Shown: positions 1,746-47,987 of the stretch, in pieces
Layout: each line of letters opens with the position of its first letter
Numbering within the stretch: position 1 is the first letter of the stretch
Origin: Acidaminococcaceae bacterium
Lineage (GTDB): Bacteria; Bacillota; Negativicutes; Acidaminococcales; Acidaminococcaceae
Reading direction: 5' to 3'
Assembly (NCBI GenBank): GCA_017405945.1
Contig: JAFQZL010000055.1
Span: 62,001-126,000, forward strand
DNA length: 64,000 nucleotides
Translations under genes and position numbers: made by a program
The notes under the pieces: generated by a model
What the model saw: the letters and a program-made list of their open reading frames with translations, nothing else
What the model was told of the DNA's origin: nothing
The model's database searches: none

Positions 1746-2063
1746 GATGTTTTCTCCTTGCACTCTTTAACGGCAGTATTTGTTCAGCAGCCAAAGTTAG
1801 GCATCTTGATAGCGGGAAGAAGAGGTTTGCATAAAAAACTCCGATAATAATGTTGCAATAGCATTATTACCAATACTATCATTTTATGGTAAAAATTGGA
1901 AGAGATATGTAATGTGTGGTTCAAACTTACTGTAGATACCCAAAAGGCGTACTGACAGTGGTTCCCATTTAAAAAATTGTTGGATAGACATAAGTGAATT
2001 TCAAAGGGAAAGTTGATGGAGGGCGCTAAAAACGGATAAAAGCTGTTAAGCTTTATATTCAGT
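1746..2063. other. Intergenic gap between divergent GT2 and flippase genes
   Basis: About 320 bases with no supported gene. It must hold the promoters of the leftward GT2 gene and the rightward flippase gene. No consensus -35/-10 pair stood out, and no clear Shine-Dalgarno precedes the flippase ATG at 2064; a GGAGGG at about 2018 is too far upstream to serve it. Confidence 0.5.
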
Positions 2064-3653
2064 ATGATAAAAGCTATGAGTTTGGGTAATAATGCTAATC
2101 GTCAATTTAACAGAACCCGTAACGTAGAGCGGAATGTGGTCTACGGATTGATAAACCGCTTTTTTGCGTTGTTGCTGCCATTTGTTGTGCGCACAGTTCT
2201 AATCTACCGGTTTGGCGCTGTCTATTTGGGCATGAACAGCCTGTTTGCTTCCATCCTGCAGGTATTGAATCTGGCGGAACTGGGATTTGGTTCTGCGGTG
2301 GTGTTCAGTTTGTACCTTCCTCTTGCGCGGGAAGATACCAATACAGTGTGTGCCTATTTGGGCACGTATCGCAGAATATACCGCGCCATTGGTATTGTGA
2401 TTTTTTTGGCAGGGTTGGCGGTAATGCCGGTTTTGCCGCGCCTGTTACAAGACAGTGTTGTTCCGGATGATATGAATGTGTTCATCTGGTATTTTATTTT
2501 TTTGCTGGACTCGGCAATCAGTTATCTGTTATATGGTTATAAGACTTCTATTCCGTCCGCCCTGCAGCGAAACGATGTGCTCAGTAAAATTGATACGGTG
2601 GTGCTGATTGGGAAAGCGGGGATACAGATACTTTTTTTAGTATGTACGGATTATTTTTATTATTATTTGCTGACATCCCTGTGTTTTACTATTGCTCGGA
2701 ATTTGTTGATTGCCCGTGTCACGGAAAAACTGTATCCTCAGTATGTATGTCGGGGCAGCATCAGCCGGGCGCAGTTTGCGGAATTGAAAAAATTGGTATA
2801 CGGCTTGATGCTGAGTAAAATACGGGATACGAGCCGGCACGCTATCGACAGTATTTGTATCACAGCATTTATCGGGCTTACTATGACGGCTATCTATGCC
2901 AATTATTTCCTGATTTACACGGCGACGGTTTCCGTGTTTGGCATTTTGACAAACGCCATGACGGCTTCCGTGGGAAACAGCATTGCTACGGAAAGCTCGG
3001 AAAAAACATGGCAGGACATGCGTCGGTTCAATTTTTTGTATATGATGATGGCTGGTTGGGCTGCCATTTGCATGCTGTGCTTGTACCAGCCGTTTGTCAG
3101 TCTGTGGGTGGGGCAGGACCTAATGCTTGGCATGCCGGAAGTGGCGGCACTTTGCTTTTATTTTTATTTGGGACTGGCTGGAGAAGTTCGATGGATCTAT
3201 TTTCAGGGTGCCGGCTTGTGGTGGAAAGCCCGATACTTTGTTATTGCTGAAATTTCGGCTAATATTGTACTGAATATCTTGCTGGCAAAATACTGGGGTG
3301 TGTTGGGAATCATTCTGGCAACGATTTTTTCTTTGTTCATTATTGATTTTATTAATGGCGCTCGGATTTTGTTTAACGAGTATTTTAAGAACGGAAAACT
3401 GTGGTTATTTTTTGCGGATCACGCAAGATATTTGCTTGTGACGGTAGTGTTGTCGGGATTCTGTTTCTATGTGTGTAATCAACTAAGCGCAATAGTTGTG
3501 GGCAGGTTTACAGGTGACGGCGTGATTGTGATTGCATTACGCTTGTTTATCTGTACGGCTGTTCCCATACTGGGATATGGTTTGGTATATCATCGCACGG
3601 AGCAATATGCGGAGGCAAAGAACTGGTTGCTGCAGAGGATTGACGTCTTATGA
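2064..3653 (+). CDS. wzx: Wzx-type polysaccharide flippase (MATE/MOP superfamily)
   Basis: A 529-residue multi-spanning membrane protein. The N-terminal pattern, with basic residues, NVVYGLINRFFALLLPFVVR and then a long hydrophobic series of about 12-14 segments, matches polysaccharide-biosynthesis flippases that turn undecaprenyl-linked repeat units across the inner membrane. The segment FGAVYLGMNSLFASILQVLN near residue 50 is characteristic. The length is near the usual 450-530. An alternative start is the ATG 12 bases downstream. It sits between GT2 and GT4 genes and near a Wzz-like gene, which fits a Wzx/Wzy-type pathway whose polymerase lies outside the window. The repeat unit is unknown. 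Confidence 0.85.
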   Translation: MIKAMSLGNNANRQFNRTRNVERNVVYGLINRFFALLLPFVVRTVLIYRFGAVYLGMNSLFASILQVLNLAELGFGSAVVFSLYLPLAREDTNTVCAYLGTYRRIYRAIGIVIFLAGLAVMPVLPRLLQDSVVPDDMNVFIWYFIFLLDSAISYLLYGYKTSIPSALQRNDVLSKIDTVVLIGKAGIQILFLVCTDYFYYYLLTSLCFTIARNLLIARVTEKLYPQYVCRGSISRAQFAELKKLVYGLMLSKIRDTSRHAIDSICITAFIGLTMTAIYANYFLIYTATVSVFGILTNAMTASVGNSIATESSEKTWQDMRRFNFLYMMMAGWAAICMLCLYQPFVSLWVGQDLMLGMPEVAALCFYFYLGLAGEVRWIYFQGAGLWWKARYFVIAEISANIVLNILLAKYWGVLGIILATIFSLFIIDFINGARILFNEYFKNGKLWLFFADHARYLLVTVVLSGFCFYVCNQLSAIVVGRFTGDGVIVIALRLFICTAVPILGYGLVYHRTEQYAEAKNWLLQRIDVL

Positions 3654-8639: not shown

Positions 8640-9225
8640 ATTGACATCACACTCCTGTGTTTTTCCCGAAGGCTCCGCTGTCCGCTTTGCGCCTGGTCCT
8701 GCGTGTTGGCGGCCGGCGTGTCTTCCCGGGGAAAGATCTGTTGCGGGAATCCGCGAAGGAGATTATACAGTAACGGGACTTGCGTTACAAGACGGCGTGT
8801 GCGTGGCAAAACGCCCGGGAAACCGGTCCTTTTTGCCGGAAATTTGCGGAAAATGCCTGTTTCTTTGCTGTTTTGCGCGGCATTTGGAAACTTGCGTAAC
8901 GTTGCGGAGGTAAACGCTCAGGTTGATTATTCTCAAAACGTATATTTTTTTTTTGAAAACGTTAAGTATTTCTTTTAAAATCAATGATTTACTGCTTGAT
9001 AGATTTTGAGATTGTGGTAGAATAAAAAAGCCGCCGGAAACAAACCCTGCATCCTGCGAAACGGATGCAGGCGGATGGCCGGCGGGAAAGCGCTGTAAAT
9101 TCTTCCGGAATTTCTGTATTGCAAGCTTTGAGCATGGCTGCTTCCCTGTGGTTCTGCCCGGCAGGGCGGGGGTGGGAAGCGGCGGCTCGCAAAACTAAAA
9201 AACTTAATGAGGGGAAATAAAACAT
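8640..9225. other. Divergent control region between sigma factor and XRE regulator
   Basis: About 590 bases without a supported gene. It contains a T-rich tract near 8940-8965 with two copies of AAAACGT about 24 bases apart (possible operator half-sites) and a strong hairpin at 9030-9086 annotated separately. GAGGGG before the ATG at 9226 is the ribosome site of the XRE gene. Open frames here on either strand show no domain or ribosome site. Confidence 0.5.
9030..9086 (-). terminator. Nested hairpin with T run on the minus strand
   Basis: An inner stem CCTGCATCC/GGATGCAGG lies inside an outer CCGCCGG/CCGGCGG stem. On the minus strand it is followed by a run of six T, as in an intrinsic terminator. 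No minus-strand gene is visible directly upstream of it, so either an untranslated transcript ends here or the hairpin has another role. Confidence 0.5.
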
Positions 9226-9642
9226 ATGATAGAAGGTTTTATTTTTTATTCTCCGGAGCTTATCAGACAGGTTCGGAAAAAAGCTAAAATGACCCAGGCA
9301 AAGTTTGGAAAATATGTAGACAGGGTTTCGGCGGGCACGGTATCCCGATGGGAACACGGAAGAATGGTGCCGACCCCGAGGCATTTCGCCAAAATTGCCG
9401 AACTGGATGCCATGTATGCAAAGATCGAGTCCGCTGACGGGGGGGCGGCAGTTGATGAAAGGCAGGAGACTGCCACCGGAAAGACCCATGCGGCGGCAGG
9501 GGAGGAAGGTATCTGCCATTGTCCCACCTGCCGGCAGATTAATAAAATGATTCAGGCGCTGGAACACAGGAAACAGCTTCTTGTGGACTATAGAAACAGC
9601 GTACACAGCGGGTTGCCCGGACCGGTTCCCTGGCGGGAATGA
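9226..9642 (+). CDS. XRE-family helix-turn-helix regulator with cysteine motif
   Basis: A 138-residue protein. Residues 11-60 form an XRE-type helix-turn-helix (ELIRQVRKKAKMTQAKFGKY, then SAGTVSRWEHGRMVPTPR), the DNA-binding fold of phage repressors and antitoxins. After a loose linker, a C97-H-C99-P-T-C102 motif, possibly zinc-binding, precedes a predicted helix (INKMIQALEHRKQLL). It sits divergently from the sigma factor, with a long shared upstream region, so it may control the sigma factor and the amidase group. Its binding site is not identifiable by eye. Confidence 0.8.
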   Translation: MIEGFIFYSPELIRQVRKKAKMTQAKFGKYVDRVSAGTVSRWEHGRMVPTPRHFAKIAELDAMYAKIESADGGAAVDERQETATGKTHAAAGEEGICHCPTCRQINKMIQALEHRKQLLVDYRNSVHSGLPGPVPWRE

Positions 9643-10028
9643 CGTTTGTGAAACACTGTTCGCTGCGTTTGCGTGAAGCGGGCGCAGGTTGCGGGAAACA
9701 GTGGCTCTTGTAAATAACCTTATATATTCAATATGGAAACTGCCGGAAAAGAATTACAGCTGGCGCCGGGGTTGTTCTGTTACGGAACGGCCCTGGCGCT
9801 CTTTTTATTATGTTTCGGAACGGTTCTGGCATTCGTATTATTTCCTTTCACGGAGACTGCCGGTTCAGGACGCGGAGAAAAAATTTTTAAGAAAATAAAA
9901 AAAGTGCATTTAAAAATCGGGGGTCAACTTGTTTGTATATAGTGTGGGGGTAATTTCGGAAGCGCTTCCCGGGAATCACTTCCCCGTGAACCTGATCAGG
10001 TAAATCCAAAAGAAGGAGAGTGAGGAAC
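9643..10028. other. Intergenic region upstream of amidase operon
   Basis: About 385 bases. It holds an imperfect direct repeat near 9780-9840 (two units containing CGGAACGG...CTGGC) and a perfect GGAAGCGCTTCC palindrome at about 9958-9969. The palindrome could be an operator upstream of the amidase gene. Short overlapping frames (69 codons, one with a hydrophobic stretch) lack ribosome sites and are not supported as genes. Confidence 0.4.
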
Positions 10029-10673
10029 GTGCTGGTACAAAACCCTGAAGTCATTTTGGAAGGCGGGCTGCGGCAGATGGCCCGCGAGGCCGGAAGCGGC
10101 ATCAGGAACATTTACCTGCACTGGACCGCCGGCCGCTACGGGCAGGTGTACGACGATTACCATCTGTGTATCGGCCGGGACGGCACGGTGTACGTGAACT
10201 GCAGGCATCTGACGGATATCAGGTACCATACCTGGATGCGGAACCACAGTGCCGTCGGCATTGCCCTGTGCTGCGGCGAGGACGCACGCTGCTGGCTGCC
10301 TGCGGGCCGCGACGGGTATGGGACGGAAGAAGCCTGTGAGTTTACGGACGGACCGCAGCAGGACTGTGCCCTGATTGATTACGGTCCGCAGCCGCCTACG
10401 GATATCCAGATCGAAGTCATGGCCGATGTGGTGGCGATCCTCTGTGAAGAACTGCATCTTCCCATTACCCCGGAAACGGTCATGACCCACTGCGAAGCCG
10501 CCTTTGAAGACGGCTACGGCCCCGGCGACGGGGATCCGGACATGCGCTGGGATCTCTGGTTCCTGCCGGACACCGACTGTTACGGCAGGTTGCAGCCCGG
10601 CGGCGGGGTGCTGCGGGGAAAGGCCGTGTTCTACCGGGACCTGCGGAAGCAGGGCCTCGTGGACAGACAGTAA
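10029..10673 (+). CDS. N-acetylmuramoyl-L-alanine amidase (Amidase_2 type)
   Basis: A 214-residue peptidoglycan hydrolase that cuts the bond between MurNAc and the L-Ala of the stem peptide. It shows the Amidase_2 signature: HWTAG with zinc ligand H31, YHTWM with H67, and THCEAAF with H154 followed by W174-D175. No signal peptide or cell-wall binding domain is present, which fits an endolysin-like or conserved-locus enzyme. The frame is open to a GTG at 10020, but that leaves only one base after AGGAG. The in-frame GTG at 10029 gives a 10-base spacing and is preferred. It begins a rightward operon with three small genes. Confidence 0.85.
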   Translation: MLVQNPEVILEGGLRQMAREAGSGIRNIYLHWTAGRYGQVYDDYHLCIGRDGTVYVNCRHLTDIRYHTWMRNHSAVGIALCCGEDARCWLPAGRDGYGTEEACEFTDGPQQDCALIDYGPQPPTDIQIEVMADVVAILCEELHLPITPETVMTHCEAAFEDGYGPGDGDPDMRWDLWFLPDTDCYGRLQPGGGVLRGKAVFYRDLRKQGLVDRQ

Positions 10674-15421: not shown

Positions 15422-15504
15422 ATTTTGCAAAGGTATTAGGATTATTATAAGATTTGGAATAACAAATAGATTTTCATGTAGATTTTAAGGGTTACAGGTG
15501 TTTG

Positions 15505-16692
15505 ATGATGCAGAAAGAGGAAGAGTTTTTCTTACAGGTATTAGCAGACTATTTAAATGGCAGATTAACCAGGGTGCCGGAGGATTTAGATTGGTCTGTC
15601 ATAGAATCAATCGGCGAGGCACACGAGATGACAGGTGTTATATACCATCAATGCAAAAACAACATTGTGCAATTTAATTTGCCAGATACAGAAAAAAACA
15701 AATGGAAGCGGGTCTACATAAGTAACTTTATTTTATATTCGAAACGGCTGGCATTGCTGAAACAAGTAGATGCAGCATTCCAAAAAGAGAACATTCCGTA
15801 TTTAATTTTCAAAGGTACTGAAATAGCAAAGTATTATCCCGTACCAGCCCAAAGAACTATGGGCGATTCTGATTTTTTGGTACATGAACAGGATAAACAA
15901 AGAGCCTGTGAAGCGTTAACCAGATTAGGTTTTGAAATGGACTTAACCAGGTCTAATTATAATGAGTGGCATATCATTAAAAACGATATGACTATAGAAT
16001 TACATCACAAATTGATTTATGATTATAATGTTGAATTAGAAGCCATTCAGAACTGGGGAAATAAAGTTTGGGATTATGTAACTGTGTACAATAATCAAGC
16101 GCGGCGTGAACTTGATTTGACATATCACCTTGTATATACAATACTTCATTTAAGAAAACATTTATTACAAGAAATTGTAGGTTTTCGTCAGTTTATGGAT
16201 GTAGCAGAACTTGCTTTACAGGCTGACATCAATTGGAAACAGGCGGAATTGTGGTTTGACGAATTAAATCTGGGGAATTTTTCTCAGGTATGTTTTGCAT
16301 TTTGCAGAAAGTGGTTTGATATACAGATACCAAATCGTAAATGCGAACTTGAAGATGATTTTTACACTCTGTTTACAGAAAAAATGTTAGCTGGCGGTGT
16401 GTTTGGCTTAATAATAGATAAAAAAGCAACAGAGAATGTTGTTTTCAATGAAATGCGCTTTGCTAAATCTTCAAGTGTATATGGCATATTAAAGTATGCT
16501 TTTTTACCATATGAAAAAATGCGCCCGTTACCTTATTGCAAATTTTTGGATGGAAGGCCGTATTTATTGCCAGTTGCTTGGTGTTGGAGATTCATATACA
16601 GGTTTGGAAAGGTAGTTCCGCTGTTAAAAGGTGCTTATGATAGTGACACAATAAAGAAAAAAGAAGATATGCTCACAAAGTGGGGTTTATAG
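15505..16692 (+). CDS. Uncharacterised nucleotidyltransferase (NTP_transf_5-like)
   Basis: A 395-residue protein resembling the uncharacterised nucleotidyltransferase family found beside HPr-kinase-like and PqqD genes. The nucleotidyltransferase core is visible: IFKGTEIAKYYP (K103-G104 loop), RTMGDSDFLV with paired aspartates D121 and D123, and a third acidic position in IELHHK (E165, H167). In characterised lasso-peptide loci, relatives modify a phosphorylated peptide using a nucleotide or nucleotide-sugar. Here it opens a glycosyltransferase operon. The first of two adjacent ATGs (15505) is taken as start. The gene is AT-rich. A second, degenerate copy lies at 20866. Confidence 0.75.
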   Translation: MMQKEEEFFLQVLADYLNGRLTRVPEDLDWSVIESIGEAHEMTGVIYHQCKNNIVQFNLPDTEKNKWKRVYISNFILYSKRLALLKQVDAAFQKENIPYLIFKGTEIAKYYPVPAQRTMGDSDFLVHEQDKQRACEALTRLGFEMDLTRSNYNEWHIIKNDMTIELHHKLIYDYNVELEAIQNWGNKVWDYVTVYNNQARRELDLTYHLVYTILHLRKHLLQEIVGFRQFMDVAELALQADINWKQAELWFDELNLGNFSQVCFAFCRKWFDIQIPNRKCELEDDFYTLFTEKMLAGGVFGLIIDKKATENVVFNEMRFAKSSSVYGILKYAFLPYEKMRPLPYCKFLDGRPYLLPVAWCWRFIYRFGKVVPLLKGAYDSDTIKKKEDMLTKWGL

Positions 16693-16721
16693 TTTATTTG
16701 GTATGCGTAGGAGAAAAGCTA

Positions 16722-17654
16722 ATGGGTTCAATGGGAAAGCCGTCTGCTTTAAAAACAAAAGAAATAATTGTTTCTATGACATCGTATCCGCCCAGGATTC
16801 ATAGCGCTGTCCTTGCTCTCAAAACGATTTTTAAGCAGACAAAGTTACCGGATAAGGTTATATTATGGCTTGCGGAGTCTGAGTTTCCGAATAAGCTGGC
16901 TGACTTGCCTATAAATCTTCGGCGGCTGATAACGGAGAAAAATCTTCAAGTACGTTGGTGTGAAGAGGATTTGAAGTCGCATAAAAAATATTTCTGGGCA
17001 TTTAAAGAATATCCGGATGCGCTGATCATAACTGTTGACGACGATGTAATATATCCGCCAAGGCTTATTGAAAGTTTATATCAATCCTATCTGGTTTATC
17101 CGCACGCTGTATCTGCTTCACGGACCTGTTTTATCCCAATATCACAAGATGGAGAAATTCCACCTTATAAATCATGGCCTGTAGGAATAGATGCCTTTAT
17201 TTCAATACCATCTTTGCAACTTTGTGCAACTGGTGTTGGGGGTGTTTTATATCCTACAAGTCTCTTTTCGGATGTTCAAAATTTGTTGGACATAGAAGTT
17301 ATTAAACGTACTTGCCTGTATGAAGATGACTTATGGCTGAAAACAATGGAACTCGTTGCCGGTGTACCTGTTGTCGTGGCAGAAGGAATTGATTGCTTAC
17401 TTTCTACGCCAAATTCACAGGAGATTGGACTTTATCATGAAAATCTGAAGGGCAGGAGTGACAGGCAATTTCTACAGATACAGGAGGAAATCAATAGACG
17501 TTATGGGGATAATTTTTTCTTGAAGAAACTTATGGATCCAACTATCGGCGTAAATTTAGTGGGCGTTAAAGTATTAGCTGATTTGATAAAATATTATCAA
17601 AATAAAGAAAGAAAATTAAAAAGAGAATATTTAACAAAGACTTTTAATAATTGA
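16722..17654 (+). CDS. GT-A-like glycosyltransferase of the DDD type
   Basis: A 310-residue protein with IIVSMTSYPPRIHSAVLALK at the N-terminus and a triple-aspartate metal site ITVDDDVIYPP (D106-D108), typical of a group of Bacillota capsule transferases. AGGAG lies 8 bases before the ATG at 16722; the frame extends into the previous gene but without a ribosome site. It shares most of its sequence pattern (LPDKVILWL, RWCE, YPPRLIESLYQSYL) with the first 280 residues of the gene at 58663, at the opposite end of the cluster. Sugar and linkage are unknown. It is probably co-transcribed with the flanking genes. Confidence 0.75.
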   Translation: MGSMGKPSALKTKEIIVSMTSYPPRIHSAVLALKTIFKQTKLPDKVILWLAESEFPNKLADLPINLRRLITEKNLQVRWCEEDLKSHKKYFWAFKEYPDALIITVDDDVIYPPRLIESLYQSYLVYPHAVSASRTCFIPISQDGEIPPYKSWPVGIDAFISIPSLQLCATGVGGVLYPTSLFSDVQNLLDIEVIKRTCLYEDDLWLKTMELVAGVPVVVAEGIDCLLSTPNSQEIGLYHENLKGRSDRQFLQIQEEINRRYGDNFFLKKLMDPTIGVNLVGVKVLADLIKYYQNKERKLKREYLTKTFNN

Positions 17655-17696
17655 GATTAATTATTAAATTTGTTTTTTAGATTGGAGGTAAAAGGT

Positions 17697-18737
17697 TTGG
17701 ATTATACCAAAAAGAAAAATCTCTCTGATTATTTTGTAGCATTAGATGAGAGGTTAGGTGAAATCTTGCCGGCAAGAGTCAGCTTGCTTGCGGATATAGC
17801 CGGTTATACAGTGCGTTTGATTTTTCCGGGTATAGAATACACCCGTTATGTTATCTCGGATATGTTTGTAAGTCCCGATAGCGGTAGATCGGTTGATGCA
17901 ACGTTTATTTGGTGGGAGGATAGAATTTTCCCTTACCGGTTGCATAGCTTTGCTCATAGTAAGGGTTTTGAGCAGTTGAGTCCTAACTTTTGCAAGATGG
18001 AGGATGATTATGGGTATGTCGAAATAATAGGTGATACTCTCAGAGCAGCAGATTATCAAAAAGACATATATTATTTATTGACATATCCGATTTTGCAGGA
18101 GCCAAAATGGCCGGTTATTAGTCATCCTTTTGTCAAAGCAGTTTATATTTGGGCACAAAGACGAAATTTATTGATATTACATTCGGCAGCAGTTGGCATA
18201 GATGGGCATGGAGTTCTGATTGTAGGACATGGGGGAACGGGTAAAAGCACGCTAACCTGTACCTGCCTGGCAGACGGGTTTGATTTTGTTTCGGACGATT
18301 ATTGTTTATTAAACGCTACTGGACCCCGTAAAGTGTATCCTGTTTATACGGACGTTTTTCTGAATCCGGATTCCCTTGCAAAGTTGCCCATGTTTAAACC
18401 CTTTGAGATTTTGCCTATGCAAGTAGAAAAACCGTCTTTTGTAGTAGGAGAAGCCAGAATTAAACCGTCATTATCTGTTGAGGCAATCATTTTACCTCAG
18501 ATAACAGACCGGACAGAACCCGAAATTAAACCGGATAAAACCAGTAAAGCCTTGGGGCAGGTTGTTTTTTCCACTGTAAAACAAATTGGCCGTTTTCATG
18601 AAACGGAATTTGTCCGGAAACTATCTCAGCGTTTGTTAGGAATGCCGGTGTACCGGTTTAGCTTAACAGAAGACTTACAGAAAAACAGTCAATATTTAAA
18701 AAAATGGATAAAGGAGGATTTATCATGTACAAATTAA
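17697..18737 (+). CDS. HPr-kinase-like P-loop protein (HprK-related kinase)
   Basis: A 346-residue protein whose C-terminal half has the HprK-related core. It runs HSAAVGIDGHGVLIVG, the Walker A GHGGTGKST (177-185), then the acidic SDDYCLL motif (199-205) used for metal binding. The N-terminal 150 residues are family-specific. True HPr kinases act on the phosphocarrier HPr, but relatives beside PqqD genes phosphorylate RiPP peptides such as paeninodin. A GGAGG site 8 bases before TTG at 17697 sets the start. Its end overlaps the PqqD-like gene by 13 bases, so the two are translationally coupled. The substrate here is unknown. Confidence 0.8.
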   Translation: MDYTKKKNLSDYFVALDERLGEILPARVSLLADIAGYTVRLIFPGIEYTRYVISDMFVSPDSGRSVDATFIWWEDRIFPYRLHSFAHSKGFEQLSPNFCKMEDDYGYVEIIGDTLRAADYQKDIYYLLTYPILQEPKWPVISHPFVKAVYIWAQRRNLLILHSAAVGIDGHGVLIVGHGGTGKSTLTCTCLADGFDFVSDDYCLLNATGPRKVYPVYTDVFLNPDSLAKLPMFKPFEILPMQVEKPSFVVGEARIKPSLSVEAIILPQITDRTEPEIKPDKTSKALGQVVFSTVKQIGRFHETEFVRKLSQRLLGMPVYRFSLTEDLQKNSQYLKKWIKEDLSCTN

Positions 18738-19141
18738 ACGAGGAAAAAATGTTCTATGACTATGCTGATGGACAGGCTGTGGTGATTAATTATCAGACCG
18801 GTATGTATTACGGAATGAACTTGCTGGGTTCTGCCATTTTGGACCGTATCATAGCCGGTAAGGATGTTGAGGAGATTATAAAAGCTGTAAAAAAGCTGCC
18901 TCAATGCCCGTCTGATATAGCAGAGCGTGTTCATAGTTTTGTTAAAGAATTGAAGGAAAAAGAAATTATTATTGATGGACCTGCTGTTTCTGGCGGTGCA
19001 GAACCGTTGCCAAATGAAGTAACTGAAGATGGTTTTGAGTTAAAATTGGACATGTTTGCGGAGATGGCGGATCTTCTTCTGGCTGATCCGGTGCATGATG
19101 TTGATATGCAAGCAGGGTGGCCTAAACTGAAAGACAGGTAA
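18725..19141 (+). CDS. PqqD-like peptide-binding protein with C-terminal extension
   Basis: A 138-residue protein. The first 85-90 residues match the PqqD fold pattern (ADGQAVVINYQTGMYYGMN, then LGSAILDRI). PqqD proteins are RiPP recognition elements that hold a leader peptide for modifying enzymes. Roughly 45 extra residues follow, acidic and ending DPVHDVDMQAGWPKLKDR, which is unusual for a bare PqqD. AAAGGAGG precedes the ATG at 18725. It overlaps the kinase-like gene, so the two likely work together. Whether the tail is a fused substrate, a partner-binding tail or a spacer is not known. Confidence 0.75.
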   Translation: MYKLNEEKMFYDYADGQAVVINYQTGMYYGMNLLGSAILDRIIAGKDVEEIIKAVKKLPQCPSDIAERVHSFVKELKEKEIIIDGPAVSGGAEPLPNEVTEDGFELKLDMFAEMADLLLADPVHDVDMQAGWPKLKDR

Positions 19142-19170
19142 TTGTTTTTATTGTTTATAGGGTAGATATT

Positions 19171-19869
19171 ATGGAACCTTTGATTTCTGTAGTCGTAGTA
19201 ACTTATAATCGAGCCCGGTATCTTAAAGAAGCTTTAGACAGTATACTAAGACAGACATTCAAAAATTATGAAATCATTCTGGTAGATGACGGCTCGGTGG
19301 ATAACACGAAAGAAATAGTTGAGCAATACGAAGGAATTCGTTATATTTATCAGGAACATGGCGGTATTTCCAAAGCGCGAAATACAGCCGTTAAAGCTGC
19401 TAAGGGAAAGTGGATTGCTACCCTTGATTCCGATGACCTGTGGAAGAAAGAAAAATTGCAGAAGCAGGTGGACTATTTAGAGGCACATCCTGAATGTCGT
19501 ATTGTGTATACGGCGTTTTGTAACTTTGCCGATGTTTCAGAAGATATACTTAATGAGCGGCAAGCAAAACTATTGCAGTCAGCGGGCAGGTCTTATCTGC
19601 CGAGTGCGTTAATAGATGCCAGGCTGTTTGATGAAATTGGTCTGTATGATGAAACGATTGAATGGGGCGAAGACATTGAATGGATATTTCGCAGTAGATT
19701 TTTTAAGATTGACATCGGGCATTGCATAGATGAAGTCCTTTATTTACGCAGAGTCCATGGTTCGAATATCTCTATTACCACAAAAGAAATCAGTAATTTA
19801 GGATTTTGGAAAATGGCAAGTGATGCTTACAGAAAAATAAAAAGGGACGGAAAACAATTAAAAAGATAA
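19171..19869 (+). CDS. Glycosyltransferase family 2
   Basis: A 232-residue, compact GT2 enzyme, essentially the catalytic GT-A domain with no extension. It has ISVVVVTYNRARYLKEALDS, a VDDGSVDNT strand, ISKARNTA, and the DSDD metal site (86-89). The predicted catalytic-base region EWGEDIEW follows. It lies 29 bases after the PqqD-like gene on the same strand and likely shares its transcript. Specificity is unknown. Confidence 0.85.
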   Translation: MEPLISVVVVTYNRARYLKEALDSILRQTFKNYEIILVDDGSVDNTKEIVEQYEGIRYIYQEHGGISKARNTAVKAAKGKWIATLDSDDLWKKEKLQKQVDYLEAHPECRIVYTAFCNFADVSEDILNERQAKLLQSAGRSYLPSALIDARLFDEIGLYDETIEWGEDIEWIFRSRFFKIDIGHCIDEVLYLRRVHGSNISITTKEISNLGFWKMASDAYRKIKRDGKQLKR

Positions 19870-19932
19870 GTGTGTCATCATACTTTTCATTTAGTAAAAA
19901 ATTAGATGTATAGAGAAAGAGAATGCGATAGT

Positions 19933-20838
19933 ATGAGCCCAAAAATATCGGTTTTGATTCCTGTACATAATACGGAATTATTTCTTGCTAATTGTCTTAA
20001 AAGCGTTATTTCGCAGACATTAAATGAAATAGAAATTATATGCGTAGAAGACGCATCTGAGGATCATAGTGGACTCGTTTTAAAAAGATATGCTGAAAAA
20101 GACTCGCGGATCAGAATTATCTGGCATAATAAAAATGAAGGTACACATAAAGCCAGAAAGGATGCGGTGTTGGTTGCAAGGGGGAAGTACATCATGTTTT
20201 TAGATAGTGATGATGAACTGTTCCCCAATGCATGCGAGGTAGCATATAATGCCATTGAAAGCAATAATACAGATGCAATTCAGTTTGGTGTTCAAAGTAT
20301 TGACTCCAAAGGAAATTATATAGCTACAAAAAGCTGGTTTATAACAGAATATACTGACAGAATTGACAATAATTGGCTGCATTTATATGATAGAAAACAA
20401 ATTAAATCATGGGAGACGTGGAATAAGATTTATAAAGCAGATCTTTGTAAAAACGCATTTAAACAAATGGATGATGACTATTTGATAATTGCAGAAGATG
20501 TATATTTTTTTTGTGTGTATGGATATTTAGCAAAATCTATTTCCATGATTGAAGATGTGCTTTACAAATACCGTCAGGGTTTTGGAATATGGAGTGGAAT
20601 TCAGGGAAAAATCAGTTTAGAAAAGTATAAGATACTTTTATCACAAAAGAAAGCGTTAGATGCCATTCAACGCTATTATAAAACTAAACCCGATGCAAAA
20701 AAGTTCGAGCCAATCATTCAGCGACGTGTAAAAACACATTTTTTACGATTGTCTCTCTTATGGCTGCATTATGGTTTACAGGATACGGATAAAGCGGAAG
20801 GCTTGCAGCTATTTGCTGAAACATGGGGAAATAAATAA
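19933..20838 (+). CDS. Glycosyltransferase family 2
   Basis: A 301-residue GT2 enzyme with ISVLIPVHNTELFLANCLKS, the variant strand ICVEDASED (E in place of the usual D), and DSDD (91-94) in FLDSDDELFPNACEVAYNAI. The same unusual CVED plus DSDDELFP pattern occurs in the GT2 genes at 51212 and 52631, so the three form a paralogous group. The ATG at 19933 was chosen to give the usual N-terminus; the frame runs nine codons further upstream. Ribosome site is weak. Confidence 0.85.
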   Translation: MSPKISVLIPVHNTELFLANCLKSVISQTLNEIEIICVEDASEDHSGLVLKRYAEKDSRIRIIWHNKNEGTHKARKDAVLVARGKYIMFLDSDDELFPNACEVAYNAIESNNTDAIQFGVQSIDSKGNYIATKSWFITEYTDRIDNNWLHLYDRKQIKSWETWNKIYKADLCKNAFKQMDDDYLIIAEDVYFFCVYGYLAKSISMIEDVLYKYRQGFGIWSGIQGKISLEKYKILLSQKKALDAIQRYYKTKPDAKKFEPIIQRRVKTHFLRLSLLWLHYGLQDTDKAEGLQLFAETWGNK

Positions 20839-20865
20839 TCCTGTAGGGGGACAATAAAGGTTATT

Positions 20866-22020
20866 ATGCAAGTTACATATGATAAGCTCCGGTCAACTGT
20901 ATTAGCGAATCTGGGTATAGACCATACGGTTACAGGCGATTTGCTTCAGTTGTATTTTGCCGAGAGTTTGGCACCGGAGTCACTGGCCTGCTTTTTTTCC
21001 CAATATGATATTGAACTGTTAGAGTTTCAGAATGTATGGCTGTTAAGTAAATTGGCAACTCGTTTACATTATGCCGGTGTTCCTAAAGAAGAATTCCCAC
21101 GTGTCAAAGGTATCGTGAAACGGTTTATGGTGGAAAATGGCCGGCATTTTTGTGTATTGCCCGGCGTATTAGAGGCTTTTAATAGATCAGACGTTGCGGT
21201 GATGCTCCTGAACGGAACTGCCATAAAGGTGTTCTACGAGCCGGCAGAAACACGGTATTACAGTACTATAGACTTTCTGGTGCAAGCAGGAGAGATATAT
21301 AGTGCAGGTCATATTTTAGAAAAACTGGGATTCCGGTTACAGGGTACGTTCTGGGGGCAACATGTTTACCGGAAGAACGATGTGAGCGTTGCGATTCACA
21401 GTGAGTATTTGAAAGCAAATATGTTGACTGGGGACCTGGCAGATATCTGGCAACATTCGTCATCAATAACCTTGCAGGGGAAAAAAGCCTTTGTACCCTG
21501 TACGGAAATGATGTTACTAATTCTTTTGGTACAGGGGCTGGAAGCGTGCTGTTCGTGTATCAGTAATTGTCTGGCAAATAGTTTTGTGAATGAATTTATA
21601 GATAGTAAATTCTTTTTGTCTGATGCTTCTTTGAACTGGGAAAAGTTTATTGATATGGCAAAAAAGAGTCAACTTACATTACATGTGCGTTTGATGCTGG
21701 ATGTTTTAAACCAACTGTATCCGGGAGTGGTTGCGGGCAAAGTGTTGGAGGCCTTACCGTATACTGACAAAGATATTGCTAATGTGCAGAAATTGATAAC
21801 GTATAACTTTGCCAGAAAGAAAGCGACGGAAGCCAGGGATAGGCGCGACCGAATGGAGTATTATTGTAACGGTGTGGCGGCGTTGTGGAACTTAAATTGT
21901 TTCTATGGTAATCGTAGTTCGTTGTTTTCCAACGTCACGGATTTTCCGCAGCTTATTGCCATGTGGAACAACCACAGGGGAATCAAAGGATTGTTATCCA
22001 AAGTGGGAGGATTTAAATAA
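20866..22020 (+). CDS. NTP_transf_5-like protein with degenerate active site
   Basis: A 384-residue protein related in layout to the nucleotidyltransferase at 15505: an N-terminal helical region, then LNGTAIKVFYEP and RYYSTIDFLV. Compared with the first copy, the first catalytic aspartate is replaced (D121 matches T134; D136 is kept) and the later acidic residue is lost (E165 matches A176, while H178 remains). It may therefore have lost transferase activity and serve as a binding or regulatory partner. It sits between two GT2 genes, with a four-base gap to the next. Confidence 0.65.
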   Translation: MQVTYDKLRSTVLANLGIDHTVTGDLLQLYFAESLAPESLACFFSQYDIELLEFQNVWLLSKLATRLHYAGVPKEEFPRVKGIVKRFMVENGRHFCVLPGVLEAFNRSDVAVMLLNGTAIKVFYEPAETRYYSTIDFLVQAGEIYSAGHILEKLGFRLQGTFWGQHVYRKNDVSVAIHSEYLKANMLTGDLADIWQHSSSITLQGKKAFVPCTEMMLLILLVQGLEACCSCISNCLANSFVNEFIDSKFFLSDASLNWEKFIDMAKKSQLTLHVRLMLDVLNQLYPGVVAGKVLEALPYTDKDIANVQKLITYNFARKKATEARDRRDRMEYYCNGVAALWNLNCFYGNRSSLFSNVTDFPQLIAMWNNHRGIKGLLSKVGGFK

Positions 22021-22023
22021 ATA

Positions 22024-22713
22024 ATGAAGTTGTCTGTCATTATCCCTTGCTATAATGCGGGTTCCTATTTATCCCAGGCTGTTTTTTCTATACGAAAACA
22101 GCAGGCGGGTTTTCCTTTGACGGTGGAGATTATTGTAATTGACGATGGTTCTACGGATGGCTGTGTGGAGCAGCTGCAAGGTTCGGATCTCATAATCTTG
22201 CATCAGGATCATCAGGGGGCGTCAGCCGCCCGGAACTATGGCATGAAGGAAGCGAGAGGAGAGTATCTGTTGTTTTTGGATGCGGATGATGTACTGGTTC
22301 CCGATGCGGTTGAATCGCTGTATCATGGACTTGTACAGCAGGAAGGGTCTGCGGTTGCGTTAGGTATGGCAGAAGAGTTTATTTCAGAAGAATTGGATGC
22401 CAAAACAGCAGCCGGGCTGGCAAAAAAGGAAATTCCTTTTAGCGCGTTTCTCTCCGGATGTTGTTTTGGAAAAAAGGAAGCATTGCTGCAGATTGGCTTT
22501 TTTGATACAAGCCTTAAGGGCGGGGAAACGGTTGACTGGCTGGCCCGTTTGCGCAATTCCGATTTACAAACTGTGCAGCTTGATGTGGTAACGGTACGCA
22601 GACGTATTCACTTAACCAATACCGGCAGAGTCTGTGAGCAAGAAGAAATGCAGGCTTATGCTACTATAATAAGAAGGCGTTTATTAGCACAGAGGATGAG
22701 CAGGAAAAAATGA
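22024..22713 (+). CDS. Glycosyltransferase family 2
   Basis: A 229-residue GT2 enzyme, catalytic domain only: LSVIIPCYNAGSYLSQAVFS, VIDDGSTDG, GASAARNYG and the DADD metal site (86-89). Its stop overlaps the start of the ABC exporter by four bases (ATGA), indicating translational coupling; a transferase coupled to an exporter may act on the exported lipid-linked product. Sugar unknown. Confidence 0.85.
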   Translation: MKLSVIIPCYNAGSYLSQAVFSIRKQQAGFPLTVEIIVIDDGSTDGCVEQLQGSDLIILHQDHQGASAARNYGMKEARGEYLLFLDADDVLVPDAVESLYHGLVQQEGSAVALGMAEEFISEELDAKTAAGLAKKEIPFSAFLSGCCFGKKEALLQIGFFDTSLKGGETVDWLARLRNSDLQTVQLDVVTVRRRIHLTNTGRVCEQEEMQAYATIIRRRLLAQRMSRKK

Positions 22714-24470
22714 GCTTTTTAAGCAAGTTTAAATATTTTTTAGGTACGGATCAAAAATTAAAAGTAGTTGGGTTTCTGGTATGTATTGTTCTGGCTGCGG
22801 CTTTGGAACTGCTGAGTCTGTCCCTGATGATTCCGCTTGTCATGGCGTTGTTGGACGCTTCCTTTCTGCAAAAACTGCCGTTTTTGCGGAAATATGAACA
22901 TATACTGAACCAGTGGGACCGGCAGGAACTGATTATTGTCTTTTTGCTGGCTTTTTTCTTGGTTATATTGATAAAGAATCTTTTTGTTTTTGTAACCAAA
23001 ATCTACCGCAGGTCCTTTATTGTTACCAGTAATTATCGCAGTTCTTCGAAATTGTACAATACCTACCTTCATTGTGATTATGAAGATGTGTTGATGCGGA
23101 ATTCTAATGATATCATCCGTAATATTGTATATGTCAGCGACCATTCCTATATTCTTCTGGAAGCGTTACTGGAATTGCTGGGAGAATTGTTCATCGTTGT
23201 TTTCATGCTGGGGTTTTTACTGTTCATCAATTGGCGTGTAACGCTGATTTTATTCTTTTTCCTGAGCGGGCTCCTGATAATTTATTATAAATTCAGCAAT
23301 AAAAAATTGCAGGAAATCGGGCGGGAATCCAATAGTGTGTATCTGTATGCCATGGAGCGGGTGCGGGAATCTATTCTGGCGTTTAAGGAAATCCAGCTGA
23401 TGAACCGGGAATCCGTTTTTTTCAAACGGTACTTGGATAATCATCTGTATAATGTAAAACTGGAAAAAAAGAAAGCATATTATTCTGTGGCCCCTGCCCA
23501 TGTGACAGAAGTCTGCGTGTTTGCTGCCCTTTGTCTGTATATCGGCATCGCCGTATCCATGGATAAGGATCCGGCAAGGCTGGTGGCAGAGTTGTCTGTG
23601 GTATCCCTGGCTGCCTGGCGCATGATTCCTTCTGTAAACCGGATCAATGCAAATGCCAACCGGATCAGTTTATATATGCCATCGTTTAACCAGATTACCG
23701 GTGAGTTTATTCACTATTTAAAATCGGACAATGCAGATGCAAGTTTTGCCAATGTGGAGAAGCTGCCTTTCCAGCATTCTGTTACATTACAGGATATTTG
23801 TTACCGCTATCCGCATACGGAAACGGATATTCTGCAGCATGTGAATTTGCAAGTGAAAAAAGGAGATAAGATTGGTATCATCGGTGTTTCCGGCGGGGGT
23901 AAGACGACATTGGTAGATACTCTGTTAGGCTACCTGAAACCCTATCATGGGAAGGTGCTGGTTGACGGAACCGATATTGCTACCAACCGCAAAGGCTGGA
24001 TGCTGAATATTGGTTACATACCTCAAATGATTTTTTTGCTGGACGGGACCATCCGCAACAATATTTTGCTGGGTTATGAAGAGGGCGACGAGAGTAAGAT
24101 CTGGGAAGCGCTGCGTCTGGCCCAGCTGGATGATTTTGTGAAAGGTTTGCCTAAGGGGTTGGATACGGAGATTGGGGAACGTGGAATTAAACTTTCCGGT
24201 GGGCAGCGACAGCGGATTGGTATTGCCCGGGCTCTTTACAATGATTCCCAACTTCTTGTCTTTGACGAAGCCACCTCTGCCCTGGATAAAGAAACGGAAG
24301 CAGAGCTGATGAAAGCGATTAATACGCTGGATAAAGATAAAACGATTATTATTATTTCACATAATATAAATACACTGCAGAATTGCCACAGGATTTACAG
24401 TGTGAAGGATAAGGGGCTGGTGGAAAAGTCTTATAATCAGGGTGGAAATTATGGCCGGACAAATGAATAA
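22710..24470 (+). CDS. ABC exporter, fused membrane and ATPase domains (PglK/McjD/MsbA-like)
   Basis: A 586-residue half-transporter. Residues 1-310 are the six-helix membrane domain; residues about 350-580 are the ATPase, with Walker A GVSGGGKTT (near 392), signature LSGGQRQ (near 495) and Walker B LLVFDEATSALD (near 514). It would work as a homodimer. Relatives flip lipid-linked oligosaccharides (PglK), lipid A (MsbA) or export lasso peptides (McjD). Given both glycosyltransferases and a PqqD/kinase pair in the same operon, either role is possible. Two fragments of a similar gene survive in the scar at 27749-27860. Confidence 0.88.
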   Translation: MSFLSKFKYFLGTDQKLKVVGFLVCIVLAAALELLSLSLMIPLVMALLDASFLQKLPFLRKYEHILNQWDRQELIIVFLLAFFLVILIKNLFVFVTKIYRRSFIVTSNYRSSSKLYNTYLHCDYEDVLMRNSNDIIRNIVYVSDHSYILLEALLELLGELFIVVFMLGFLLFINWRVTLILFFFLSGLLIIYYKFSNKKLQEIGRESNSVYLYAMERVRESILAFKEIQLMNRESVFFKRYLDNHLYNVKLEKKKAYYSVAPAHVTEVCVFAALCLYIGIAVSMDKDPARLVAELSVVSLAAWRMIPSVNRINANANRISLYMPSFNQITGEFIHYLKSDNADASFANVEKLPFQHSVTLQDICYRYPHTETDILQHVNLQVKKGDKIGIIGVSGGGKTTLVDTLLGYLKPYHGKVLVDGTDIATNRKGWMLNIGYIPQMIFLLDGTIRNNILLGYEEGDESKIWEALRLAQLDDFVKGLPKGLDTEIGERGIKLSGGQRQRIGIARALYNDSQLLVFDEATSALDKETEAELMKAINTLDKDKTIIIISHNINTLQNCHRIYSVKDKGLVEKSYNQGGNYGRTNE

Positions 24471-25443
24471 AACACCGACAGTATCTGTTATTGTTCCCGT
24501 ATATCATGTTGAAAAAGTACTCAGACGATGTTTGGACAGTCTTCTCAGGCAGACATTTTCCGATTATGAAATCATACTGGTCAATGATGGCGGAAATGAA
24601 ACGGAAACTGCAATCTGCGAAGAATATGCTGCAAAGCATCCGCTCATTCAATATCATTATCAGGAGAATCAGGGTGCAAGTGTTGCAAGAAACACAGGTT
24701 TGTCCATGGCACGTGGCAGCTGGATCATGTTTGTTGACAGTGACGACTGGGTAGATGAAAATTTTGTTTTAAAGGCCTTCGCTGCTGTAAATAATAATAA
24801 AGCGCAAATGGCTGTTTTTGATTTGGTTTATACAATTGGCGACAGTCGAAATGGGAAAAAACACTGTTCGCTTCTGGAAAAAGGAGTGTATCCTGCGGTA
24901 ACTATTCTTAAGGGTTGTATTGATGGAAGTATAGCATGTTATGTTTGGAATAAGATTTATAAAAGAGAACTATGGGAGGGTATTCTGTTCCCGGCGGGCG
25001 AGATTTGGGAAGATGTTGCCGTGCTTCACGAGGTCATTGACCGAGCAGATAAAATAGCTATATTGCATGATGTGCTTTGTTATATTTCTAAGAGAGAAGG
25101 CAGTGCTACAGACGTTGCGTTTCGGACGGGTGATTGTCATAAGTGGTCGTATATTCAAAGAAAAAAACGTTATCAGTATATTAAAAATTATCATGCGGAA
25201 TTGCTTGATGTTGTGAATAACGATATAGCATCAGCTGCTGTGCGATATGCCGGCTTTCTTGCCAAGAATGAAGATAAACTGCATAATATATATGATATTT
25301 CAAAATGGCTGAGGACTCAAAAAATACAGTTAAATAATGGGCGAATGAAAAGAAGAATTTCTTTTTTTATTCTTTTGCACTTCCCCAAAGAGTTTTTTTA
25401 TTCTGTAAAAATCCTCTTGACCTTAGGCTTGGTTCACAGGTGA
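24451..25443 (+). CDS. Glycosyltransferase family 2
   Basis: A 330-residue GT2 enzyme with VSVIVPVYHVEKVLRRCLDS, GASVARNTG and DSDD (96-99). GGTGG lies just before the ATG at 24451, which is inside the last codons of the ABC exporter gene, so the two are coupled. It is the last intact gene of the left cluster; the phosphohexomutase remnant begins 26 bases after its stop. Confidence 0.87.
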   Translation: MAGQMNKTPTVSVIVPVYHVEKVLRRCLDSLLRQTFSDYEIILVNDGGNETETAICEEYAAKHPLIQYHYQENQGASVARNTGLSMARGSWIMFVDSDDWVDENFVLKAFAAVNNNKAQMAVFDLVYTIGDSRNGKKHCSLLEKGVYPAVTILKGCIDGSIACYVWNKIYKRELWEGILFPAGEIWEDVAVLHEVIDRADKIAILHDVLCYISKREGSATDVAFRTGDCHKWSYIQRKKRYQYIKNYHAELLDVVNNDIASAAVRYAGFLAKNEDKLHNIYDISKWLRTQKIQLNNGRMKRRISFFILLHFPKEFFYSVKILLTLGLVHR

Positions 25444-45867: not shown

Positions 45868-47964
45868 ATGCGTAACCAAAAGATGTTTGAAACCGAAAAC
45901 TTAAAAAATCTATTCATTGTTTGCCTTATTTTAGTAGGCGAATTTGTGTTTTTCAGAAATGTTATCGGCCATGACTTTTTGATAGGTTATAGTGGTGATG
46001 GTAAACTTACCATGCTTCTTACAGAGCACTGGTATAATTTCTTTTGCGGCAGAGAGGCCTTTGCTGAATTAGCCTTTTTTTATCCGGATGAAGCTGTGCT
46101 TGGCTATACAGATATGTTGCTTGGATTTGGGCTGATTCACAGCATATTGAGATTTTTGGGTCTCAACATGTTTGTTGCCTATAAATATACGCTTATTATT
46201 GTACATTTATTTGGTTCATTGTGTATGTTTTATCTGCTGCATTCGGTGATGAAGTGCAACCGGTATTGGAGTTTGTTTGGCGTAACGGTATTTTCTTATT
46301 CTAACGCATTTGCTGTTAATATTGCACATACTCAATTGACTGCGTTAAGTTTATTGCCGTTATTGACCATATTTATTATTAAGGCATTGTCGTCTAATGT
46401 CGATGAAAAAAAAGGAAGCATTTTCATTGTATCAGCTTTGTCTATACTCGCTTTTATTGCATATACCGCATGGTATATTGCGTTTTTTACCGTCCTGTTT
46501 GGTTTAATTCTATTTATGACGGGCTATGTTATTTTAGACGAAACTGGATTAAGTTTTAAAGAGAATTTCTTTTCCTGGTTTACGGCGCATAAGAAAAGTG
46601 TTATAGCTTTCTTTTTATATTCGGTTGCAATTTTTGTGCCGTTTTTAATTGTTTACCTGCCTGCTTTACGTAATACCAGCGGTTATGGATATCAGGAAGT
46701 AAGTGTGTATTTGCCTGAATTGATAGATGTTATCAATGTTGGCCAAGGTAATTTGCTTTTTGATAAATTTCCTTCGTTAACCGTGTTTCATCGTCAAGTT
46801 GTAACTATGGAAACCGTGCAAGGTTTTTCGCTGGTAATTTTGGCAATTTACTTATACATATTTTTTCAACGTAACCGGTATAGGGAATATTTGAAAACAA
46901 AAGAAGAAACCGTAAGGTTTTTGGTGATTAATGCGTGTATTATATCTATAGTTGTTGTTATCGTATTGTCGGTAAAACTTGGTTCTGACGGTTCGTCATT
47001 ATGGTATTTCCTGTATAACTCTATGCCCGGGGCTAAGGCCATACGCGCTGTGGCCCGTTTTTGGTTCTATTTAAGTTTTCCTGTAGCTTTTGTGGTTGCG
47101 GTGCGCGGAGACTATATTTTTGCAAAGAAAACAATACGATTCAGACACCTTGCAGGGGTGATCCTTTTTATTGCATTGTTCATTTCCAATATGCGTGCCG
47201 ATGGTGTTATTTATGATGGAAGGTGGCGTACGGATTTGGAAGTTGATTTCCTAACTAATGTAACGAAACCGCCGTCTGCCTGTAAGGCATTTTATATTTA
47301 CGATTCCGGCAATAAAAAAATTCAGGCTCACTCATATCAATTGGCGGCTTATGGAATTGCGAATCATTTTGGCATAAAAACGGTGAATGGGTATTCGGGA
47401 AATAGTCCTCAGGGTTGGGATTTATGGGATGTCGAGAGCAAGGAATATGAATCTAACGTGTATTCCTGGATAAAACAGAATGATTTAAAAGATTTATACG
47501 GATACGACAGGCATACGAATACATGGGCAAAATTCACCGTTGAAAACAGGAAGGAAATTACCGATGTGTTCTGTACTGAGAAGGGTAAGTTTTCATTTTC
47601 ATATGGTTTGCTGGGAGGCCAGGGTAAAGACGTTCTCTGGACAAAAAAACATTTTGGGGTTGTAATCAGGAACAAACAGATTGGGAAAAGGGGTTTGCGC
47701 CTTTCCTTAACAACGGTTTTAGATTCATACAAGGCACAGTTAAAAGACCTGCCGTTATATATAAAACTATATGTTAACGGAGAATATATTGCGGATCTTG
47801 ATGTAATCAACGGCAATAAAGAGTATGAATTTAAGGTTCCAAACCATAAAAACGATGTGTATGAAGTTGAATTGAAAACGAATGCCTGGTTTTGCCCGGC
47901 AAAGTTAGGTATGAGTACAGATCCCAGAGAGTTGTCTCTGGCAGTGTACTATGTTGGAGATTAG
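45868..47964 (+). CDS. Large GT-C/YfhO-like membrane protein, copy 1
   Basis: A 698-residue protein with about 11-12 membrane segments (to about residue 440) and a C-terminal soluble beta-rich domain. The first external loop has IGHDFLIGYSGDGKLTMLL and LTEHWYNFFCG, then FFYPDEAVLGYTDML, a pattern of GT-C/YfhO-like proteins that modify cell-surface polymers. A close paralogue follows at once. Some DNA stretches are nearly identical between the copies, mainly in the core and the last 250 bases, while others have drifted. Confidence 0.65.
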   Translation: MRNQKMFETENLKNLFIVCLILVGEFVFFRNVIGHDFLIGYSGDGKLTMLLTEHWYNFFCGREAFAELAFFYPDEAVLGYTDMLLGFGLIHSILRFLGLNMFVAYKYTLIIVHLFGSLCMFYLLHSVMKCNRYWSLFGVTVFSYSNAFAVNIAHTQLTALSLLPLLTIFIIKALSSNVDEKKGSIFIVSALSILAFIAYTAWYIAFFTVLFGLILFMTGYVILDETGLSFKENFFSWFTAHKKSVIAFFLYSVAIFVPFLIVYLPALRNTSGYGYQEVSVYLPELIDVINVGQGNLLFDKFPSLTVFHRQVVTMETVQGFSLVILAIYLYIFFQRNRYREYLKTKEETVRFLVINACIISIVVVIVLSVKLGSDGSSLWYFLYNSMPGAKAIRAVARFWFYLSFPVAFVVAVRGDYIFAKKTIRFRHLAGVILFIALFISNMRADGVIYDGRWRTDLEVDFLTNVTKPPSACKAFYIYDSGNKKIQAHSYQLAAYGIANHFGIKTVNGYSGNSPQGWDLWDVESKEYESNVYSWIKQNDLKDLYGYDRHTNTWAKFTVENRKEITDVFCTEKGKFSFSYGLLGGQGKDVLWTKKHFGVVIRNKQIGKRGLRLSLTTVLDSYKAQLKDLPLYIKLYVNGEYIADLDVINGNKEYEFKVPNHKNDVYEVELKTNAWFCPAKLGMSTDPRELSLAVYYVGD

Positions 47965-47987
47965 TGCTGTTAAGTATAGGTGTGCCG

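Follow-up and report, generated by a model that had tools for sequence, protein, structure and literature searches.

In RRE-guided pathways the peptide is normally encoded by a separate gene, and the cores of lasso peptides and of linear polyphosphorylated peptides vary. In PQQ and mycofactocin biosynthesis, the peptide that works with the PqqD-type RRE has a core that does not vary between species; this peptide is separate and is processed by a radical SAM enzyme. In borosins, the substrate peptide is fused to the C-terminus of a methyltransferase.

The system for linear polyphosphorylated peptides (LPP; Nat Commun 2026; PMC13381572) uses a separate precursor with a YxxPxVLxHQxIxFETxxS leader and a variable core that is phosphorylated on Ser3. 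The same paper reports that the RRE cleft binds [Y/W]xxPx[L/V/I/F/A], with the leader extending the sheet, that LppK phosphorylates a Ser, that an SpI-like leader peptidase is present, and that the final product of the kinase and NTP transferase could not be identified (PMC13381572). For the phosphorylated lasso peptides paeninodin and pseudomycoidin, PMC9266682 describes tailoring kinases that phosphorylate a Ser and share a His-Lys-Asp-Asp catalytic set, as well as PsmN, annotated as a nucleotidyltransferase, which is reported to be needed for the presence of hexoses on the phosphorylated lasso peptide.

Here we describe a gene cassette in a 64,000 nt stretch of DNA from an Acidaminococcaceae bacterium (the whole stretch is termed the window). 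Its features are as follows:

15502..16692, + strand: NTP_transf_5 protein with a DxD-like motif (GDSD) (PF14907, E 1.4e-36; alignment)
16680-17654: protein with sub-threshold GT2 similarity only
17670..18737, + strand: HprK-like kinase belonging to the subfamily linked to the tail (Hpr_kinase_C at E 8e-7, short of the gathering score)
18725..19141, + strand: 138-residue PqqD/RRE protein whose C-terminal tail is conserved
18725..18976, + strand: RRE fold, residues 1-84 (Pfam PF05402; AF2 model matching TbiB1, Z 11.6)
18977..19033, + strand: variable linker, residues 85-103 (15% mean identity, pN/pS 0.51)
19034..19060, + strand: leader-like segment, residues 104-112, FELKLDMFA (predicted strand 108-111, motif register, alignment)
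19061..19126, + strand: invariant core, residues 113-134, with D121-P122-x-H124 and G131-W132-P133
19171..19869, + strand: GT2 glycosyltransferase, cassette type B (PF00535; scores 380 bits with the type-B model, which it helped to seed)
20866..22020, + strand: second NTP_transf_5 protein, with STID, the first Asp of the DxD-like motif being absent (PF14907, E 2.6e-20; alignment)
22024..22713, + strand: GT2 glycosyltransferase, cassette type A (PF00535; scores 317 bits with the type-A model, which it helped to seed)
22710..24470, + strand: MsbA/PglK-like ABC exporter

The cassette is like the PQQ and mycofactocin systems in combining a PqqD-type RRE with an invariant core, but here the two are fused and are accompanied by a kinase and glycosyltransferases. 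As in borosins, a peptide lies at the C-terminus of a pathway protein; the partner in the window is a recognition domain rather than a methyltransferase. Likeness to LPP loci extends to a discrete RRE, an HprK-like kinase scoring below the Pfam gathering score, an NTP_transf_5-type NTP transferase and an MsbA-like exporter, and to the embedding of these genes in glycosyltransferase-rich capsular loci of Bacillota. Unlike LPP loci, the window cassette has a leader-like part and an invariant, Ser-free core fused to the RRE and tightly linked GT2 genes, and no counterpart of the SpI-like peptidase (PMC13381572) was recognised in it. With paeninodin and pseudomycoidin it shares the RRE fold (among solved structures, TbiB1 and FusB1-like chains match best), the His-Lys-Asp-Asp set and an NTP_transf_5 protein (PMC9266682), whereas no lasso cyclase, B2 peptidase, separate WxxP precursor or C-terminal Ser was found in the cassette. 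Because a separate precursor, a peptidase and a Ser were looked for and not found, the cassette is assigned to neither the LPP nor the lasso peptide class. In the portion of the open-licence literature that was searched, no description of an RRE-tail fusion was found.

The RRE protein and its conserved tail

The start of the PqqD/RRE gene overlaps the end of the upstream kinase gene by 13 bases (18725-18737), and a Shine-Dalgarno-like AAAGGAGG lies at 18710-18717, ahead of the ATG at 18725. Residues 18-82 match PF05402 (E 4e-9; 37.1 bits against a cut-off of 23.4), although the protein scores only 20.1 bits against the PQQ PqqD family (TIGR03859), below its cut-off of 46. An AlphaFold2 (AF2) model built from a seven-row alignment (mean pLDDT 78.7) has the RRE fold, a PqqD-like winged helix. 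Its best solved matches are lasso RREs with bound leader peptides, foremost 5v1u (TbiB1; Z 11.6, with an rmsd of 2.0 across 83 residues), followed by 6jx3 (Z 10.7). An earlier reading made from the letters alone (the sequence-only reading) had named a PqqD-like protein at 18725-19141 with a 13-base kinase overlap, all of which agrees with the ORF check and the PF05402 match. It had put the tail at roughly 45 residues past the fold, which is slightly short, as 54 residues follow residue 84. This stretch is acidic (12 D+E against 4 K+R) and ends in DPVHDVDMQAGWPKLKDR.

Scanning a collection of 84,980 species with the full protein gave nine loci, in every one of which the tail was matched through GWP; the proteins of four of these loci (L004-L007) are identical within the PqqD part. 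Queries with the tail added a plasmid gene from the cyanobacterium Crinalium, which is the only member found outside Bacillota, together with the distant Bacillota genome G580 and four more genomes of the class to which G102 belongs. Six residues (D121, P122, H124, G131, W132 and P133, forming D-P-x-H and G-W-P) are invariant in 15 of 15 proteins. Mean pairwise identity among ten representatives (45 pairs; Bacillota plus one cyanobacterium) is 32.0% in the fold, 14.9% in the linker, 46.3% in the whole tail and 59.1% in residues 113-134. The alignment behind the identity and invariance figures is biased to the extent that the tails of L012, L071 and L092-L095 came from tail queries. Since such queries favour conserved tails, a selection test served as a check that depends on them less: for five Paenibacillaceae genes, pN/pS is 0.187 in the fold, 0.514 in the linker and 0.024 in the tail (residues 104-139), each value being a sum over ten non-independent pairs. 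Searches with a kinase query offer a second, less biased check, although the kinases of L008, L009, L092, L093 and L094 seeded the query.

The tail is thus the most constrained part of the gene, under purifying selection stronger than that on the fold. The sequence-only reading had called it conserved-looking, and both the alignment of homologues and the pN/pS value bear this out, more strongly than had been stated. It had asked whether the tail, HDVD and GWP especially, is as conserved as the fold; the core exceeds the fold (59% against 32%) and GWP is invariant, but of HDVD only the His is. That the tail might be a random or decaying extension is called refuted and retains a vanishingly small probability: a single broken copy, in a metagenome-assembled genome (MAG), speaks for it, against the pN/pS of 0.024 and the six residues kept from Bacillota to a cyanobacterium. 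The copy in question is a second tail-PqqD gene in G101 (L083:8995-9492), interrupted by an in-frame stop immediately ahead of the tail and encoding Leu in place of the invariant His; it is either a decaying copy or an assembly error.

Distribution and composition of the cassette

When 291 genomes of one class were searched with the kinase query (A5), five genomes gave strong matches (383-452 bits) and the next match scored 62 bits; a tail search of the same sample matched the same five. Among 295 genomes of one family, the strong kinase matches (420-442 bits) were again in five genomes, followed by one at 85 bits, and these five carry tails with E < 1e-20; ten further weak tail matches in this sample were taken as chance. 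In the two samples together, therefore, strong kinase relatives and tails share the same 10 of 586 genomes. Because five of the ten strong kinases are seeds of A5, the independent content of this result is that no strong kinase without a tail was found. The sequence-only reading would have fallen had homologues with the same neighbours lacked the tail or carried a random one; in both samples the tail is kept wherever the kinase subfamily is kept.

Proteins of the NTP_transf_5 family are found in 22 of 299 genomes of the phylum, and among 21 such genomes checked (the window genome and 20 others, with G596 left out) only the window genome and G580 have tails. Fold-level matches on plasmids cover the PqqD part only in nine cases out of ten, Crinalium being the exception. 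A search of 100 genomes including the window's own gave just one other match, weak and confined to residues 14-58, indicating that the cassette is patchy. No strong free-standing tail was found in genome samples, plasmids or viral contigs (the last by DNA patterns only), phages gave no match and viral contigs no relative, and the tail profile matched none of the sequences of solved structures. Weak free-tail matches at L022, L024 and L034 were judged chance after inspection, and those at L023 and L025-L031 were treated as chance as a group. We conclude that the kinase-linked subfamily has a genuine tail, which is widespread in it and under strong constraint.

Four kinase residues corresponding to the His-Lys-Asp-Asp set (H171, K192, D209 and D210) are invariant in 11 of 11 aligned proteins. 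Minimal cassettes (L093-L095) consist of the tail-RRE, NTP_transf_5 and a single polypeptide that joins the kinase to two GT2 domains (open frames of 805-808 residues in all three); the MsbA/PglK-like exporter, present in the window and L009, is absent from them. Of 21 tail loci, 20 give 152-342 bits with the type-A GT2 model and the remaining one (L004), where the gene is cut by a contig end, gives 108 bits, against 0-107 bits in 11 loci without tails. Several of the tail loci overlap one another or are seeds of the model. The linkage of type-A GT2s to tail loci and the kinase-GT2 fusion tie the tail to a process that combines kinase and glycosyltransferase. More polysaccharide genes follow farther downstream in the window, including those for GDP-mannose dehydratase-like proteins, a Wzt-like ATPase and an ABC-2 permease.

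Several further features of these loci were recorded. The first NTP_transf_5 protein of the window has GDSD where the second (20866-22020) has STID and the copy in L008 has SQYG, so that the latter two are possibly catalytically altered paralogues. In both L093 (985-3225) and L095 (9494-11731), two related genes flank the minimal three-gene cassette, and one of the two has matches to BNR-repeat (sialidase-like) profiles. An unnamed PP-loop-like family recurs in MAG tail loci (L003:5190-6335 and 9090-10250; L008:6445-8388; L018:214-813 and 2050-3039), with the motifs GFSAGVDSLYT, GWTGGVDSMYT and GCTCGVDSMFT and, by eye, a C-terminal CxxCxxC-like stretch; its two L003 members have no Pfam match, and no member was found in the window.

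Leader-like segment and separate precursors

Within the tails of L012, L093, L094 and L095, the sequences FEKPML, YVKPLI, YIVPAI and YIAPLI conform to [YF]xxPx[LIA], and in all four the motif stands at one register, 18 residues ahead of the Asp of DP. Shuffle probabilities are 0.0008 to 0.0024 each, with L093 and L095 being close relatives. The L071 tail keeps the Pro but not the aromatic residue, and tails of the window type have an aromatic residue nearby (FELKL, YELTL, YSLEL) without the Pro of YxxP; FELKLDMFA of the window (residues 104-112) aligns opposite the motif of the other lineages. A strand at 108-111 is predicted in each of two AF2 models, in which residues 101-110 have a mean pLDDT of 88 and 81 and those from 114 on stay below 50. 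Comparing the profiles of tails and lasso leaders gave no significant match (E 0.089).

Separate leader peptides were recognised by eye in 11 of 13 tail-less NTP_transf_5/kinase/PqqD loci, from a crude gene caller, a short-ORF scan and a leader model; the other two (L101 and L102) are stretches under 4 kb. Small WxxP/YxxP leader peptides occur in L059-L062 and L067, LPP-like peptides in L064, and other YxxP peptides in L070, L073, L075 and L076. Loci L059-L062 and L067 often hold an ORF of about 640 residues, taken by eye as an AsnB-like cyclase. Because the leader model was built from the L059-L062, L067 and L069 peptides, its independent finds are only L110 and L111. The ribosome-binding-site filter of the short-ORF scan missed the L059 precursor, which gene calling and the leader model picked up. 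Three related 61-residue peptides with AYVKP or AYVQP (L073:5315-5497, L075:12156-12338 and L076:9338-9520) adjoin tail-less PqqD genes and likely constitute a further precursor family.

Among 15 tail loci, six have no YxxP small ORF; the other nine have one to three each, all of which look by eye like fragments of larger genes or out-of-frame ORFs, and none is convincing. In the window, no YxxP small ORF was found within 5 kb, nor any match to a two-sequence LPP-like model. PqqD is matched only once in the window genome, and likewise in G1018 and G1055. A lasso-type leader profile gave no match in nine of ten tail genomes, the window genome among them, and in the tenth (G103) the leader it found lies beside another PqqD. 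The profile is of limited sensitivity, having missed the second, lasso-like cluster of G855 (L102).

The presence of a putative RRE-binding motif in four tails, together with the mostly separate leaders of tail-less loci, makes the tail look like a leader plus invariant core fused to its own RRE. The sequence-only reading had proposed that a precursor is fused to its own recognition domain, and this proposal is strengthened by the motif, by the AF2 strand just ahead of the core and by the recognition of separate leaders only in tail-less loci. The limited sensitivity of the leader profile would also fit a tail that fills the RRE groove as a regulator, with the true precursor, of an unrecognised type, encoded elsewhere in the genome. 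This we regard as unlikely, since the constraint runs through DPxH...GWP, past any part that would bind the groove, and the 15 tail loci hold no convincing YxxP small ORF.

Acceptor chemistry and the role of the tail

The tails of the window, L093 and L095 have no Ser, Thr or Tyr from residue 104 on, and none of these residues is conserved across tails. Among the ten genes of window positions 15505-25440, a Pfam scan identified no SpI-like signal peptidase, no asparagine-synthetase-like cyclase and no B2 peptidase. The phosphorylation of Ser carried out by related kinases is impossible on the window tail, and this is where the fused-precursor proposal is weakened; phosphorylation on Ser or Thr was rejected both for the window and as a shared chemistry. 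The kinase does keep His-Lys-Asp-Asp, and NTP_transf_5 and MsbA-like proteins are present, which would fit an LPP- or paeninodin-like scheme of Ser phosphorylation followed by leader cleavage and release. Set against the missing hydroxyl residues and the missing SpI, B2 and cyclase, such a scheme is highly improbable. If the tail is the acceptor, the site would be the conserved Asp, His or Trp, or other chemistry would apply.

That the tail is the modified substrate appears to us plausible, at about even odds, and the same holds for the fuller proposal, our preferred one, that the RRE carries its own substrate-like peptide, whose leader-like part docks and whose core is presented to the kinase, NTP_transf_5 protein and GT2s, and modified. 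In such a mechanism, a flexible linker would be followed by a strand resembling a leader, namely FELKL in the window and [YF]xxPx[LIA] in other lineages, which may dock on the RRE groove of its own molecule or of a second copy. The invariant core LLLADPVHDVD...GWP would then be presented to the HprK-like kinase, the NTP_transf_5 protein and the cassette-specific GT2s and be modified at its invariant Asp, His or Trp, most likely with a group of the phospho-sugar type. As no leader peptidase was recognised in the cassette, the tail probably stays attached to the RRE.

Several observations argue against a substrate role. The tail core does not vary, unlike the cores of lasso peptides and LPP; no Ser, Thr or Tyr is conserved; window-type tails lack the Pro of YxxP, with the leader comparison at E 0.089; and only one member was found outside Bacillota. 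In the main rival explanation, the tail serves as a conserved short linear motif bringing the kinase, the NTP_transf_5 protein or a GT2 to the RRE, and the modification falls on another molecule, either a glycan intermediate or a different protein encoded in the polysaccharide locus. An invariant motif without a hydroxyl acceptor, the sharing of genomes by tail and kinase subfamily, the failure to recognise a peptidase and the position of the cassette in a polysaccharide locus are all consistent with docking of this kind. We consider it possible but less likely, because it leaves unexplained the putative RRE-binding motif in four tails and the predicted strand, and leaves the RRE of the window genome without a recognised peptide.

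Should the fused-substrate proposal be true, an RRE joined to an invariant leader-like peptide would have an unambiguous partner, and the tail would be a short candidate substrate for HprK-like kinases and NTP_transf_5 proteins. The invariance of the fused core would then point to a conserved molecule or a carrier as the product, and not to a toxin that varies. More speculatively, and with rather low confidence, the cassette might represent a new RiPP-like class in which leader and core are joined for good to their own RRE, and the unreleased, invariant Asp-Pro-x-His...Gly-Trp-Pro tail of this RRE carrier is phosphorylated on a non-hydroxyl residue and acts as primer or handle for a GT2-built glycan; this class would, equally tentatively, be patchily spread from Bacillota to Cyanobacteria.

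Elsewhere in the window, positions 45868-50105 hold two adjacent membrane-protein-like ORFs of 698 and 737 residues that are 77% identical over 705 aligned columns, a pair whose sequences indicate a recent tandem duplication.
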